Source: Microlunatus flavus (GTDB lineage: Bacteria; Actinomycetota; Actinomycetes; Propionibacteriales; Propionibacteriaceae). From it: a stretch of DNA of 64,000 bases. Every line of letters begins with the position of its first letter. Positions within the stretch are counted from its first letter, which is position 1. Of the stretch, positions 262-63,377 are shown piece after piece. The stretch is from contig NZ_FOFA01000004.1 of NCBI RefSeq assembly GCF_900110855.1, positions 302,616-366,615 on the forward strand, given 5' to 3'. The notes below the pieces were generated by a model. It was not told where the DNA came from and made no database searches. It was given only the letters and a program-made list of their open reading frames with translations. The translations under genes and the position numbers were made by a program.

Positions 262-2475
262 GTGACGATGACCAGCACCTTCGGCTCGCGGGGCGCCCGC
301 GGCCCGACGGGTGACCCGCTGGTCGGCCGCGTGCTCGACGGGCGCTACGAGATCACCCAGCGCCTCGCCCGCGGCGGCATGGCCACGGTCTACCGCGGCA
401 TCGACACCCGCCTGACGCGGACCGTCGCGGTCAAGATCATGCACGTCGGCCTGGGCGACGACGTCGAGTTCGCCCGCAAGTTCGACCGGGAGGCGCGCGC
501 GGCGGCCCGGCTGTCGCACCCCAACGTCGTCTCCGTCTTCGACCAGGGCGCCGACGCCGTCGACGGAACGGTCGTGCGGCCGTACATCGTCATGGAGTAC
601 GTCGAGGGCGAGACCCTGCGCGACGTCATCAACGCGCACGCCCCGCTCGACCCGCTCGCGGCTCTCGACCTGCTCGAGCCGGTCGTCTCCGCGCTCGCCG
701 CCGCCCACGACGCCGGGCTGGTGCACCGCGACGTCAAGCCCGAGAACGTCCTGCTCGGCACGCGGGGGCGGGTCAAGGTCGCCGACTTCGGCCTGGCCAA
801 GGCCATCAGCTCGCAGACCCAGACCGCCACCCAGGGCCTGCTCATCGGGACCGTCTCCTACCTGCCGCCCGAGCTGGTGACGACGGGGCTGGCCGACGCG
901 CGCAGCGACGTCTACAGCGCCGGCGTCGTGCTCTTCGAGCTGCTGACCGGGCGCAAGCCGCACAGCGGCGAGACCCCGATCCAGGTCGCGTACGCCCACG
1001 TCCACCGCGACGTCCCGTCGCCCTCGGCGTTCGCGCCGCCGGGGACCGTGCCGCCCTACCTCGACGCGCTGGTCGCCCGCGCCACCGCGCGCGAACCCGC
1101 GCTGCGTCCGCCCGACGGCCGCGTGCTGCTGACCCAGGTCCGCCGGGTCCGCGCGGCCCTGCGCGAGGGGCTGCGCGACGACCCCGAGCTGACGCAGGAC
1201 CTGACGCCGACTGCGCCGCTCGTCGAGGACACGGTCGGCGAGGACCTCGCGTCGGCCCCCACCGAGGTGGTCGGCGACCGCGCCGACTTCGAGGCGACCC
1301 GGCACATCGCCACCGGCCCCCAGGGCGGTCGTCCGTCGTTCGACCCGCCGACCGAGGAGCTGGGAGGCACCCCGCGGCACGGGTCGACGGCGTACGGCTC
1401 GAGCGCGCACGGCTCGACCGCGTACGGCTCGACCGCGCACGGCTCGACCGCGCACGGCTCGACCGCGTACGGGGGCCACCCCACGTTCCGCGACGCGCCG
1501 CCGCCGGTCGTCCGGGGGCACGACCCGCGCGTGCGGCCGGCGCGCAGCGAGCACTCCGAGCGGATCGCGGCCCGCCGGGAGCACGAGGCCCGGCGCCGGC
1601 GGCGCGGCTGGCTCGCGCTGATCCTGGTGCTGCTGCTGACGACCGTCGCGGCGGTGACCGGCTGGTACCTGACCGAGGGCCGCTTCACCAGCGCCCCGGC
1701 GCTCACGACCCTGACCCGCGCGGACGCCGCGTCCGTGGCCGAGCGGGCCGACGTGGCCGTCGACTTCACGGACGGGTACAGCGAGACGGTCCCCGCCGGC
1801 GAGGTCGTCTCGACCGAACCGCCCGCCGGCGCCCGGGTGCGCAAGGGCAGCCACCTCGAGGCCGTCGTGTCGCGCGGGCCGGAGCGCTTCGCGATGCCGA
1901 CCGTGGTCGGGATGAGCCAGGACGCCGCGACCACCGCCCTCGCCGCGGCGCACCTCAAGGTCGGCAAGGTCAGCAGCCGGTGGAGCGACACCGCCGCCAA
2001 GGGCGTCGTCCTCGCCGCCGCGCAGGACCCGGGCGCCTCGCTCAAGCGCGACACCGCGGTCGCCCTGACCGTCAGCGGAGGCCCGCAGCCGATCACGCTG
2101 GCCGACTGGACCGGCAAGGACGCCGACAAGGCCGCCGCCGCGCTGAAGAAGGCGGGCCTGCAGGTCAGCGTCACCCAGGAGAACTCCGACGACGTGGACG
2201 CCGGCGACGTCATCAGCCAGGACCCGCCGAAGGGCACGCTGCAGAAGGGCGACGCGGTCGCCCTCGTCGCCTCCAAGGGCCCGGTGCTCGTGACCGTGCC
2301 GAACGTGCGCGCCATGGGCATCCGCAAGGCCGAGGAGGCCATGCAGGCCGCCGGCTTCAAGACCAGGAACAAGAAGGCGACGAACTACCTCGGCCTCGGC
2401 TACGTCGTCACCTCCTCCCCCGGCGGCGGCGACCAGGCGCCCAAGGGCTCGACGATCACGCTCTTCCTGGTCTGA
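262..2475 (+). CDS. Ser/Thr protein kinase with four PASTA repeats (PknL/PknB type)
   Basis: Membrane receptor-like kinase that phosphorylates Ser/Thr on division or envelope proteins; PASTA domains bind muropeptides or lipid II (family knowledge). Seen: kinase domain at about residues 25-290 with Gly loop RGGMATVYRG, Lys58, HRDVKPEN (Asp157) and DFG (Asp175). A low-complexity juxtamembrane linker with (Y/H)GSTA pentapeptide repeats follows. One transmembrane helix lies near 448-470, then four extracellular PASTA units reach the C terminus. I chose GTG 262, preceded by GGGAG at 5 bases, over GTG 250; ATG 268 is also possible. A candidate -10 TAGACT lies at 160-165. Position near the DAHP synthase block matches PknL of mycobacteria, but mycobacterial PknL lacks PASTA repeats. 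Confidence 0.95.
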   Translation: MTMTSTFGSRGARGPTGDPLVGRVLDGRYEITQRLARGGMATVYRGIDTRLTRTVAVKIMHVGLGDDVEFARKFDREARAAARLSHPNVVSVFDQGADAVDGTVVRPYIVMEYVEGETLRDVINAHAPLDPLAALDLLEPVVSALAAAHDAGLVHRDVKPENVLLGTRGRVKVADFGLAKAISSQTQTATQGLLIGTVSYLPPELVTTGLADARSDVYSAGVVLFELLTGRKPHSGETPIQVAYAHVHRDVPSPSAFAPPGTVPPYLDALVARATAREPALRPPDGRVLLTQVRRVRAALREGLRDDPELTQDLTPTAPLVEDTVGEDLASAPTEVVGDRADFEATRHIATGPQGGRPSFDPPTEELGGTPRHGSTAYGSSAHGSTAYGSTAHGSTAHGSTAYGGHPTFRDAPPPVVRGHDPRVRPARSEHSERIAARREHEARRRRRGWLALILVLLLTTVAAVTGWYLTEGRFTSAPALTTLTRADAASVAERADVAVDFTDGYSETVPAGEVVSTEPPAGARVRKGSHLEAVVSRGPERFAMPTVVGMSQDAATTALAAAHLKVGKVSSRWSDTAAKGVVLAAAQDPGASLKRDTAVALTVSGGPQPITLADWTGKDADKAAAALKKAGLQVSVTQENSDDVDAGDVISQDPPKGTLQKGDAVALVASKGPVLVTVPNVRAMGIRKAEEAMQAAGFKTRNKKATNYLGLGYVVTSSPGGGDQAPKGSTITLFLV
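1381..1470 (+). repeat. 15-bp tandem repeat inside the kinase gene
   Basis: About six near-identical 15-bp units (GGCTCGACCGCGYAC) encode (Y/H)GSTA pentapeptides in the cytoplasmic linker between the kinase domain and the membrane helix. Such tracts often vary in copy number by slippage. The Ser/Thr-rich units could also be phosphorylation sites, which is inference. Confidence 0.8.
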
Positions 2476-2544
2476 CCGTCACCGGGGCGCCCGCGCCTCT
2501 GGGCACGGGAGGGCGTACGGGCTGGGCGTCCCTAGGCTGACGCG

Positions 2545-3534
2545 GTGTCCGGGACCCGCGCGGAGCGCCTCGCCTTCGTCGCGCTGCTGACGATGGCGGC
2601 GGTGTGGGGCTCGACGTTCTTCCTCATGAAGGACCTGCTCACCCGCCTGGGCGTCCTCGACATGCTCGCGCTGCGCTTCGCGATCGCCTCCCTCGCTCTC
2701 GCCGTCCTCGCCGCGCCCCGGCTGCGCATCGACGCGACCGTGCTGCGCCGGGGCCTGCTCCTCGGGCTGGTGTACGGCGCGGCGCAGATCGTGCAGACCG
2801 TCGGGCTCTCGCTGACCTCGGCGAGCACGTCGGGCTTCGTCACCGGCCTCTACGTGGTTCTCACGCCGCTGCTCGGCGCGCTGGTCTTCCGGGCGCGCGT
2901 CGGGGCCGCGACCTGGGCCGGCGCCGTCCTCGCCGCGGTCGGGCTGGGCGTCCTGTCGCTGCAGGGCTTCAGCGTCGGGACCGGCGAGGCGCTCACGCTC
3001 GCCTCGGCCGCCCTGTACGCCGTCCACATCCTGCTGCTGAGCCGGTTCAGCGACCCGGCGCGCGCGCTCGGTCTCAGCCTCGTCCAGCTCGTCGTCATCA
3101 CGCTCGTCTGCGGCGTGGCCGCGCTGCTGCCCGACGCCTCGAGCCGCAGCGGCATCGCCCTACCCGCCACCGCCGGCGACTGGGTCTCGCTGCTCTACCT
3201 CGCCGTCGTCGCGGGCGCGCTCTGCATGGTGCTGCAGACCTGGGCGCAGGCCCACGTCGAGCCGTCGCGCGCCGCCGTCGTCATGGCCGCCGAACCCGTC
3301 TGGGCCGCCGCCTTCGCCGTCGCGCTCGGGGGCGAGCGGGTGACCGCGCGGATGGTGCTCGGCGGTCTCGCGATCGTCGGCGCGATGTACCTGGTCGAGC
3401 TCGCGCCCAGGCGCACGCCGCTCCCGCACGACCTCGCGGACGAGGAGCCGGGCGACGGGGCGCACGACCGGCTCGAGGCACCGCTGCCCGGTGCGCCCTC
3501 CGTGGTGCCGCCGCCCACGCTCCCGCACGCCTGA
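2545..3534 (+). CDS. EamA/DMT-superfamily permease
   Basis: Predicted inner-membrane transporter of the drug/metabolite superfamily with two EamA repeats and about ten transmembrane helices. It opens with the typical TMAAVWGSTFFLMKDL motif, and a second repeat starts near residue 145. Substrate cannot be told from sequence. About 329 residues is a normal length with an extra hydrophilic Pro-rich tail of roughly 35 residues. GTG 2545 is chosen because TAGGCT at 2533-2538 leaves a 6-base gap, a leaderless promoter arrangement, and no Shine-Dalgarno sequence is present. It follows the kinase on the same strand but appears to have its own promoter. Confidence 0.88.
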   Translation: MSGTRAERLAFVALLTMAAVWGSTFFLMKDLLTRLGVLDMLALRFAIASLALAVLAAPRLRIDATVLRRGLLLGLVYGAAQIVQTVGLSLTSASTSGFVTGLYVVLTPLLGALVFRARVGAATWAGAVLAAVGLGVLSLQGFSVGTGEALTLASAALYAVHILLLSRFSDPARALGLSLVQLVVITLVCGVAALLPDASSRSGIALPATAGDWVSLLYLAVVAGALCMVLQTWAQAHVEPSRAAVVMAAEPVWAAAFAVALGGERVTARMVLGGLAIVGAMYLVELAPRRTPLPHDLADEEPGDGAHDRLEAPLPGAPSVVPPPTLPHA

Positions 3535-25317: not shown

Positions 25318-25425
25318 AGGTTTTCACGTTCACGTGAAACTCCGCCGGTGCACCCGGGAACCTCGCGCTTCCCGCAGCAGATCTGCTGGGTGAAGCACCG
25401 GAGTTTCACGTTCACGTGAAACCTG
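25318..25425. repeat. Hairpin element A (CAGAT-apex family)
   Basis: Three-part structure. Left palindrome 25320-25340 and right palindrome GTTTCACGTTCACGTGAAAC (25403-25422) can each fold, and are also complementary to each other together with GGTGC/GCACC. Between them is a central stem built on the perfect palindrome CAGCAGATCTGCTG (25375-25388), with CAGAT at the apex. It lies between convergent genes. Related elements occur at 46646, 63285 and more loosely 32225. Confidence 0.75.
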
Positions 25426-25456
25426 CGCCGCCGGAGCGTGGGTACGCGCTGCGGGA

Positions 25457-46494: not shown

Positions 46495-46645
46495 TTTCCT
46501 TTTGTCCTCGCTCCGCTCGGACGCGGATCCTGCTCGAACCCTCCGCCTTCCTCTGTCGCGGTGACGACGAGAAGCGTGTCGCCACCCCTCCGTCGTCCAG
46601 GCGGAGGCGCAGGATCCGGCTCCAGCCGGTGCCCGCAGGTTCCTC

Positions 46646-46709
46646 GCACTTCCCGCAGCAGATGTCCTGCGGGGAGTGCCGGAGTTTCACGTGAACGTGA
46701 GAAACCTGG
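46646..46709. repeat. Hairpin element B (CAGAT-apex family)
   Basis: Central stem GCACTTCCCGCAG (46646-46658) pairs with CTGCGGGGAGTGC (46667-46679), 12 of 13 plus one G-T, around the eight-base loop CAGATGTC. Next to it lies the right palindrome GTTTCACGTGAACGTGAGAAAC (46684-46705). Order and apex match element A. The left palindrome is not seen. It lies in the 439-base gap after qcrB, between the terminator and the next gene; nothing else certain was found there. Confidence 0.75.
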
Positions 46710-63124: not shown

Positions 63125-63284
63125 GGTCGGTCCTCCCAGCAGGCGTCGGTGGGCGTGCGGCGTACGGTCCCCGTCACGCTAGCGAGCGATTGTTTCCCCG
63201 CTGTTGCGACGGTCCCGCCCTGCCGTGCGGAACGTCTGCCGGCGCGTCCACCTCTGGTGTGGTCGACCGTGCAGAGGTTCCGTG

Positions 63285-63377
63285 GGTTTCCCAAGAGGTC
63301 TTGGGGAACCGGCACTCCTCACGGCAGATTCGCCACGGTAGGTGCAGGTTCCCCATGAGGTCATGGGAAACCTGCAC
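63285..63377. repeat. Hairpin element C (CAGAT-apex family)
   Basis: Left palindrome with arms 63285-63296 and 63299-63310 (GGTTTCCCAAGA / TCTTGGGGAACC), centre 63311-63345 with GGCAGATTCGCC, and right palindrome with 17-bp arms 63342-63358 and 63361-63377 (one G-T pair). The order and the CAGAT centre equal those of elements A and B, but the palindrome sequences are different. It lies between ureA and the upstream permease gene, both on the minus strand. Confidence 0.75.

Follow-up and report, generated by a model that had tools for sequence, protein, structure and literature searches.

The window, that is, the whole 64-kb stretch of Microlunatus flavus DNA which was analysed, carries three intergenic elements, A, B and C. 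Element A is flanked by a gene without assignment and by a ROK gene, whose 3' end faces it; B is placed behind a cytochrome b gene, and C is found behind a TauE/SafE gene and before a urease gamma gene. The underlying layout consists of a 20-nt arm (S), a 40-nt palindrome made up of two 20-nt arms (L and M) and, following directly, a 22-nt palindrome (P, 10+2+10). This arrangement, S-L-M-P, is the half form; in the full form, P-L-M-P, a second P stands in place of S. The unit length is 82–84 nt, full copies measuring approximately 84 nt. The parts of the three elements, with matches to the covariance model R1, are as follows (a dot marks features without strand).

25322..25339, strand., A: left palindrome TTTCACGTTCACGTGAAA, assigned from sequence
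25342..25361, strand +, A: S-like arm between left palindrome and central stem, assigned from register
25362..25381, strand +, A: left arm L of the 40-nt central palindrome
25382..25401, strand +, A: right arm M
25402..25423, strand., A: 22-nt right palindrome P (R1 match 25360–25427, E 4.2e-14)
46623..46642, strand +, B: arm S (half form, without left palindrome)
46643..46662, strand +, B: left arm L
46663..46682, strand +, B: right arm M
46683..46704, strand., B: 22-nt palindrome P (R1 match 46641–46708, E 2.7e-15)
63287..63308, strand., C: left 22-nt palindrome P (full form, stems of another family)
63309..63328, strand +, C: left arm L
63329..63348, strand +, C: right arm M
63349..63370, strand., C: right 22-nt palindrome P (R1 matches 63307–63374 on + and 63283–63350 on -)

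These are the three best places for R1 in the window, C scoring 1.6e-12; the alignment on which R1 was built took in A and B together with four siblings of C, C itself standing outside it. The places given for A, B and C in the first-pass annotation are borne out both by sequence and by R1, and the family proves to be larger than was claimed. The three-part layout described there applies to the full form, hence to C and to A, which is a full form with an extra arm inserted; B, where the left palindrome had been noted as lacking, is a half form in which arm S replaces one P. As for the orientation said to be common to all three, that of a full form is arbitrary. CAGAT, which had been proposed as the signature of the apex, is half of a palindromic centre, GCAGATCTGC, and other families carry GCAAATTTGC and other centres. 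The stems of C differ from those of A and B.

A scan of the window for shape only gave scores of 24 for A, 22 for B and, for C, 20 on one side or 29 with both P. A score of 22 was also reached at three further positions, and with a first-order Markov null one of 20 shuffled windows reached 24, the other 19 scoring 22 or less. The palindrome score by itself was rejected as proof of A–C, being too weak when the null reaches 24. What proves the three elements is their recurrence, not their geometry: in the window's own genome (G000) a DNA search, counting both strands, produced 37 matches to A and 10 to C, and R1 produced 54 on both strands.

No Rfam match exceeded the gathering cut-off in the window, so the structured RNA that had been considered at the outset corresponds to no known family there; Rfam searches of three loci gave sub-cut-off matches only. 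A tRNA/tmRNA search of the window found neither. The P of the family to which A and B belong (AB; 25404–25421 and 25322–25339) resembles the ParB site parS, which we take to be TGTTTCACGTGAAACA. This is probably a coincidence, since the P of other families is without the likeness.

Dispersed copies with compensated stems

The 54 R1 matches in G000 merge to 31 places; there are 27 such places in G015 and 41 in G010, the three genomes belonging to different species of Microlunatus. Besides AB and C a third stem family, D, is present in G000. Matches to A within this genome are 68–97% identical over the matched part, with no near-identical copies among them. Searches at the DNA level turned up relatives of A in G015, a member of the same genus and the only one of 39 other genomes to give any; relatives of C were found in this way in G010, where the 41 places carry a distinct stem family. 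The element is also present on contig C2 of G004, Microlunatus speluncae. R1 matched 10 of the 20 genomes of the genus, seven of them with at least nine matches, and 36 of 245 genomes of the order, the latter under stricter filters and with a model which is blind to other stems.

Phage records gave no match to the element and plasmid records three partial ones, all below 60% identity. No viral contig carried two P patterns. One P pattern was present in two stretches of genome contigs, the first a true element (M. speluncae) and the second probably due to chance. An exact P-like match in an archaeal MAG (L105), without the remainder of the element, is likely to be chance. In G010 there was no clear bias in replichore orientation, base 1 being assumed to lie near the origin, and in one gap of this genome (L071) two elements lie within about 300 bp of each other.

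The L-M-P portions of 77 of 90 rows, from three species and four stem sets, align without gaps over 68 columns (alignment A2); the 13 rows omitted on grounds of indels, weak palindromes or duplication are L012, L014, L017, L018, L019, L025, L027, L028, L071b, L074b, L032b, C and L106. Changes in the stems are compensated even within one genome. In the 39 G010 copies 88.0% of the cells pair and there are 59 both-side changes against 28.6 ± 5.6 on shuffling (0/500 shuffles as high), and in all 77 copies the values are 86.9% and 367 against 160.1 ± 10.3; these statistics, as well as the arm-match ones below, are inflated by the kinship of the copies. Pairing falls to 24–46% when the partner is shifted by one to three columns. 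Two of the five covariation measures are not clearly above the shuffles. Pairs with a double change are no more numerous than in shuffles, either in G010 (8 versus 7.3, 215/500 as high) or over all 77 copies (20 versus 18.6, 95/500), and further pair types number 23 versus 21.6 in G010 (151/500 as high), with 17/500 shuffles as high for all 77. L and M match each other better within a copy than between copies in G000, G015 and G010 (0/5000 shuffles each, the L071 copy possibly counting twice among the G010 rows) and in G017 (6/5000); in G009 and G014, with four rows each, such an excess was not demonstrable.

When the central stem is read on the strand where P follows it, the G-T pairs to which the first-pass annotation had drawn attention do exceed A-C (96 versus 48 cells overall, 44 versus 22 in G010), but the copies are related, and the binomial value of 8e-5 assumes independent cells, which these are not.

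With a simple GC-frame gene caller none of the 90 rows, in which one place (L071) is entered twice, falls inside a gene, in keeping with the intergenic placement first reported; 41 are convergent, 45 tandem and 4 divergent. Nineteen further rows are divided into 8, 9 and 2, respectively. In 77 of the 90 the centre of the element lies 25–130 nt past the nearest 3' end of a gene (median 80.5). Elements so placed, with an excess of G-T pairs and some positions common to species, might be RNA elements, either bidirectional terminators or stabilisers of mRNA 3' ends, which spread by ordinary duplication. We consider this improbable: half forms take either orientation with respect to tandem genes (21 opposite, 15 same), no U tract was noticed on reading the elements, Rfam offers no match, and the bracketing of one gene family, described below, would be left unaccounted for.

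Extragenic palindromes in convergent and tandem gaps also recall classic REP/REPIN sequences, which are moved by a Y1 (RAYT) transposase, and a search for a REP-associated transposase had been suggested in the first-pass annotation. Y1_Tnp (PF01797) matched in none of 21 genomes, a set which includes the carriers G000, G004, G009 and G010 and leaves out G014, G015 and G017, and in 5 of 14 controls. Since the presence of a RAYT was the criterion applied and none was found, the element is not classed as a REP, and for the genomes searched this explanation is refuted.

G000 and G015 have an element in both genomes in six gaps between the same pair of genes (31 and 26 rows compared), where 0.3–0.8 would be expected if sites were drawn from 1000–3000 gaps, a gap number which is a guess. 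Further shared sites comprise three G014/G017 pairs, one G004/G009 pair and one common to G014, G017 and G015. Between the two members of each G000/G015 pair no more than 23–29 of the 40 arm positions agree, and copies at shared sites are nearer to other copies of their own genome in 12/12 comparisons (better of two orientations). Among these gaps, L022/L044, L027/L050 and L010/L139 were seen to have species-own stems. Shared sites could arise by homing into existing elements, by gene conversion or by repeated insertion at favoured spots; the sharing of several positions fits long-lived sites better than active jumping. The first annotation had envisaged a dispersed REP- or MITE-like unit which keeps its shape while its stems change, and this is supported by its own genome, its relatives, the covariance model and covariation. 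Three lone copies lacking significant covariation and conservation would have told against it; what was found is many copies, compensated changes and some shared positions. The 20/20/20/22 geometry, the arm S and the nuclease gene between the elements go beyond what that annotation had noticed.

A gene bracketed by inverted elements

In G000, G015 and G010 one protein (51–63% identical) is encoded between two elements approximately 1.2 kb apart. The order in all three is [P M L S] gene [S L M P], with P outward, and this partner gene is the sole called gene between the elements. The outside neighbours, assigned with Pfam, are a nucleoside transporter and a polyprenyl synthetase in G000, SmpB and an M23 peptidase in G010 and, for the one neighbour scanned in G015, a CDGSH protein. 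Behind the polyprenyl synthetase gene G000 has the whole unit (L032) and G010 a solo element (L089). The sequence of the element matches that of the bracketing copies in several species. G000 has two copies of the gene, the one on contig 11 flanked by stems of family C and the one on contig 9 by stems of family D; no partner gene linked to family AB was found in G000, and G015 has one.

Searching the genus (20 genomes) with a profile revealed nine loci of the close subfamily (at least 267 bits, the next scoring 206). Inverted elements lie on both sides of the gene in seven of these (weakly in L194) and on one side in two, L177 (G014) and L178 (G017), whose other sides are without an inverted repeat (scores 21 and 27). 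Short flank stretches of L177 and L178 are alike between G014 and G017. The bracketing elements of G008 and G003 are visible by the shape scan only, R1 being silent because their stems differ so much. At the lower-scoring paralogue loci R1 gave one weak match of 14.5 bits among 21. The close gene is present in 6 of the 7 genomes with at least nine matches and in 2 of the 13 others (Fisher 0.004). A 46-bit piece of the partner gene adjoins an element of G017, and in G003 an element-bracketed copy of the gene (L181) is split over two frames.

The N-terminal part of the protein carries AbiEi_4 (PF13338) in 8/8 cases. The predicted structure of the protein (pLDDT 89.3, pTM 0.84) resembles the AbiEi antitoxin [6y8q, E 7e-5, probability 1.00]; among the five Pfam-scanned neighbours in three genomes there was no AbiEii toxin partner. 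The C-terminal domain (pLDDT of the model 82.9) shows the order helix, three strands, helix, strand, and its best fold matches in PDB are two Toxoplasma mitoribosomal chains, followed by the Vsr endonuclease [1cw0, probability 0.97, E 0.065] and TnsA, none of these being under E 0.001. A pattern of GES, D, E, D and K is invariant in 8/8 proteins, and we take the invariant E, D, E, D and K to be the catalytic residues of a PD-(D/E)XK nuclease. As no match passes E 0.001, the description "Vsr-like PD-(D/E)XK" is based upon fold order, probability and this pattern. There was no sequence match in PDB, and the defence library yielded AbiEi domain matches only. The partner protein is predicted to join a winged helix of AbiEi type to a nuclease fold of the Vsr-like PD-(D/E)XK kind.

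In the order, a close homologue (E 1e-70) is present in 39 of 245 genomes. It occurs in 24 of the 36 element genomes against 15 of the 209 others (Fisher 1e-14), a comparison which is partly circular, because bracketing elements count as matches, and is also confounded by family membership. For genomes with at least five R1 matches the figures are 12/16 against 27/229. At E 1e-70 twelve of the 36 element genomes have no close homologue; 15 of the 39 homologue genomes are without an R1 match at E 1e-4. A shape score of at least 22 was obtained for 26 of 60 flanks at 30 order loci, as against 1 of 42 paralogue flanks.

A test blind to shape compared the 255 nt to the left of the gene with the reverse complement of the 255 nt to its right, at a score of at least 60. 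Inverted flanks were recorded at 29/30 close loci (30 taken from 47 homologue matches, with L204–L206 and L209 from the genus in which the pattern was first found), at 16/21 paralogue loci and at 23/25 class-level loci (25 new ones from 79 class matches, ten of them from the same order; 13/15 outside it), the flanks being scored and not viewed singly, so that some are possibly repeats of other origin. Random intervals gave 1/259. Control genes of 600–1500 nt in the fetched loci gave 1/123, that one being the G015 partner gene (0/122 for the others). The direct orientation also scores high in 46/76 loci, as is expected if flanks are palindromic. The high scores of paralogue and class-level flanks indicate that inverted flanks are frequent in the wider AbiEi family as well; at the paralogue loci R1 and the shape scan are almost silent despite these. 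Many class-level loci (L239, L243, L255, L257) show the 20/20/20/22 shape clearly; at others (L240, L249) it was not seen. The strong inverted flanks of 16/21 paralogous AbiEi-nuclease genes (L182–L203) suggest a wider set of such units.

Palindromic full copies of some 84 nt resemble two joined terminal repeats, and one might take them for MITEs of a conventional IS with its transposase elsewhere, the AbiEi-nuclease gene being a passenger. Such a passenger would hardly be expected to be bracketed as one gene family across genus, order and class despite changed stems, nor to be the sole called gene in the three loci read; we regard this explanation, for which the IS search covered the Y1 family only, as very improbable.

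According to PMC7319586, AbiEi binds a pair of 23-bp inverted repeats with a 3-bp spacing and Rv2827c binds four repeats, which makes the 20-bp arms plausible binding sites. The third arm, S, repeats L and does so in register. Over 42 flank elements (order and class loci, score at least 22) S and L match at 7.62/14 within the same copy and at 5.00 between loci, falling to 3.0–3.9 of 14 when the register is shifted by +1 to +5. S is closest to the L of its own species in G010 and G015 and is common to G014 and G017; in G000 and G009 it is not the best fit to the species' own L. Copy by copy, S follows L only loosely. It covaries with L and with M in G000, where 18 and 13 of 5000 shuffles, respectively, reach the observed value, and in G017 (120 and 101), and with L in G010 (61, against 418 for M); it does not vary with either in G015 (4763 and 4799 of 5000), nor in G009 and G014. 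Pairing of S with M copy by copy was tried as a candidate and dropped, being unsupported in G015 and weak in G010.

Arms held in a fixed register resemble an array of sites, as do the repeats bound by AbiEi and Rv2827c, and the elements may be operator arrays of an AbiEi-like autoregulator fused to a nuclease. Solo copies would then be sites of a regulator or nucleoid protein and not transposon ends. We think this unlikely, if worth bearing in mind. Inverted sites are present at both ends of the gene, the 3' end included, in most loci, solo copies avoid divergent gaps (the 4 of 90 rows given above), and L and M covary between the copies of one genome, which recognition of a site does not need.

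A putative one-gene mobile unit

We propose, with a probability of roughly 0.6, that A, B and C represent the ends of one-gene mobile units of Actinomycetes, present here as solo copies, and that the enzyme of these units would be the AbiEi-nuclease. The autonomous unit, about 1.3 kb in length, would consist of one gene between two inverted elements in the order given above. Most probably the 20-bp arms serve the protein as a row of binding sites, and the nuclease domain presumably acts on the palindromes, perhaps as a cruciform or a single-strand hairpin. Copies could be spread or overwritten by cut-and-repair, as with homing endonucleases and REPIN/RAYT, and they may persist behind genes either because insertion is harmless there or because the hairpins bring some benefit in mRNA 3' ends.

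Of 246 genomes sampled in the class, 48 have AbiEi-domain proteins of this kind, and the proposal offers a function for them. More tentatively, and at rather less than even odds, the units might form a new class of mobile element: an AbiEi-nuclease, without a DDE, HUH, tyrosine or serine recombinase, that spreads and rewrites palindromes of 82–84 nt by shape and not by fixed sequence. On this supposition copies would be overwritten by cutting and gene conversion, which could explain the species-own stems at shared positions, the whole set of a genome changing together. Many Actinomycetes genes with an AbiEi domain, which are labelled AbiEi in the defence library, would likewise be the enzymes of such elements.

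The closest parallel is with the REP/REPIN-RAYT systems, which PMC3733652 and PMC3116915 describe as dispersed extragenic palindromes in convergent or tandem gaps, with a dedicated bracketed gene and species-specific families. Unlike a RAYT, the enzyme here is predicted to combine the AbiEi winged helix with a PD-(D/E)XK-like fold and is not of the Y1/HUH type; the unit of 82–84 nt with its 20/20/20/22 geometry also differs, and a GTAG or CGTC foot of the kind that stands beside a 20–40 bp hairpin in REPs was not noticed on reading the ends of P. With the AbiE toxin-antitoxin systems our units share the AbiEi_4 domain and, according to PMC7319586, inverted repeats of some 20–23 bp. They depart from these systems in the nuclease-like C-terminal domain, in having no toxin partner among the five neighbours and in their tens of dispersed copies.

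Like MITEs, the elements are short, palindromic and non-autonomous looking, with terminal inverted repeats in the full forms, and are linked to a longer gene-bearing unit; unlike MITEs, they have ends that are arrays of arms, and their stems change while the shape is kept. Some homing nucleases have a PD-(D/E)XK fold, and TnsA has a role in Tn7 transposition according to the title of its PDB entry. The C-terminal domain is predicted to share this fold with Vsr, TnsA and the homing nucleases; here the putative nuclease is fused to an AbiEi domain, with no sequence match in PDB. Among the matches listed, the literature search contained no description of this element or of the pairing of gene and element.

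A second, unrelated enzyme family appears to own dispersed extragenic palindromes, in which case an arrangement of the REPIN/RAYT type would have had more than one origin. The fixed geometry and free stems amount to a natural experiment on the recognition of DNA by shape, and, as stems change at shared positions, the concerted evolution of dispersed repeats becomes directly testable.

In several class-level loci (L234, L235, L241, L244, L245, L248 and L254) P has TGATCAT or TGGTCAT at its outer end, and one of these same two ends is found in L171, an element of family f4 from the same order.
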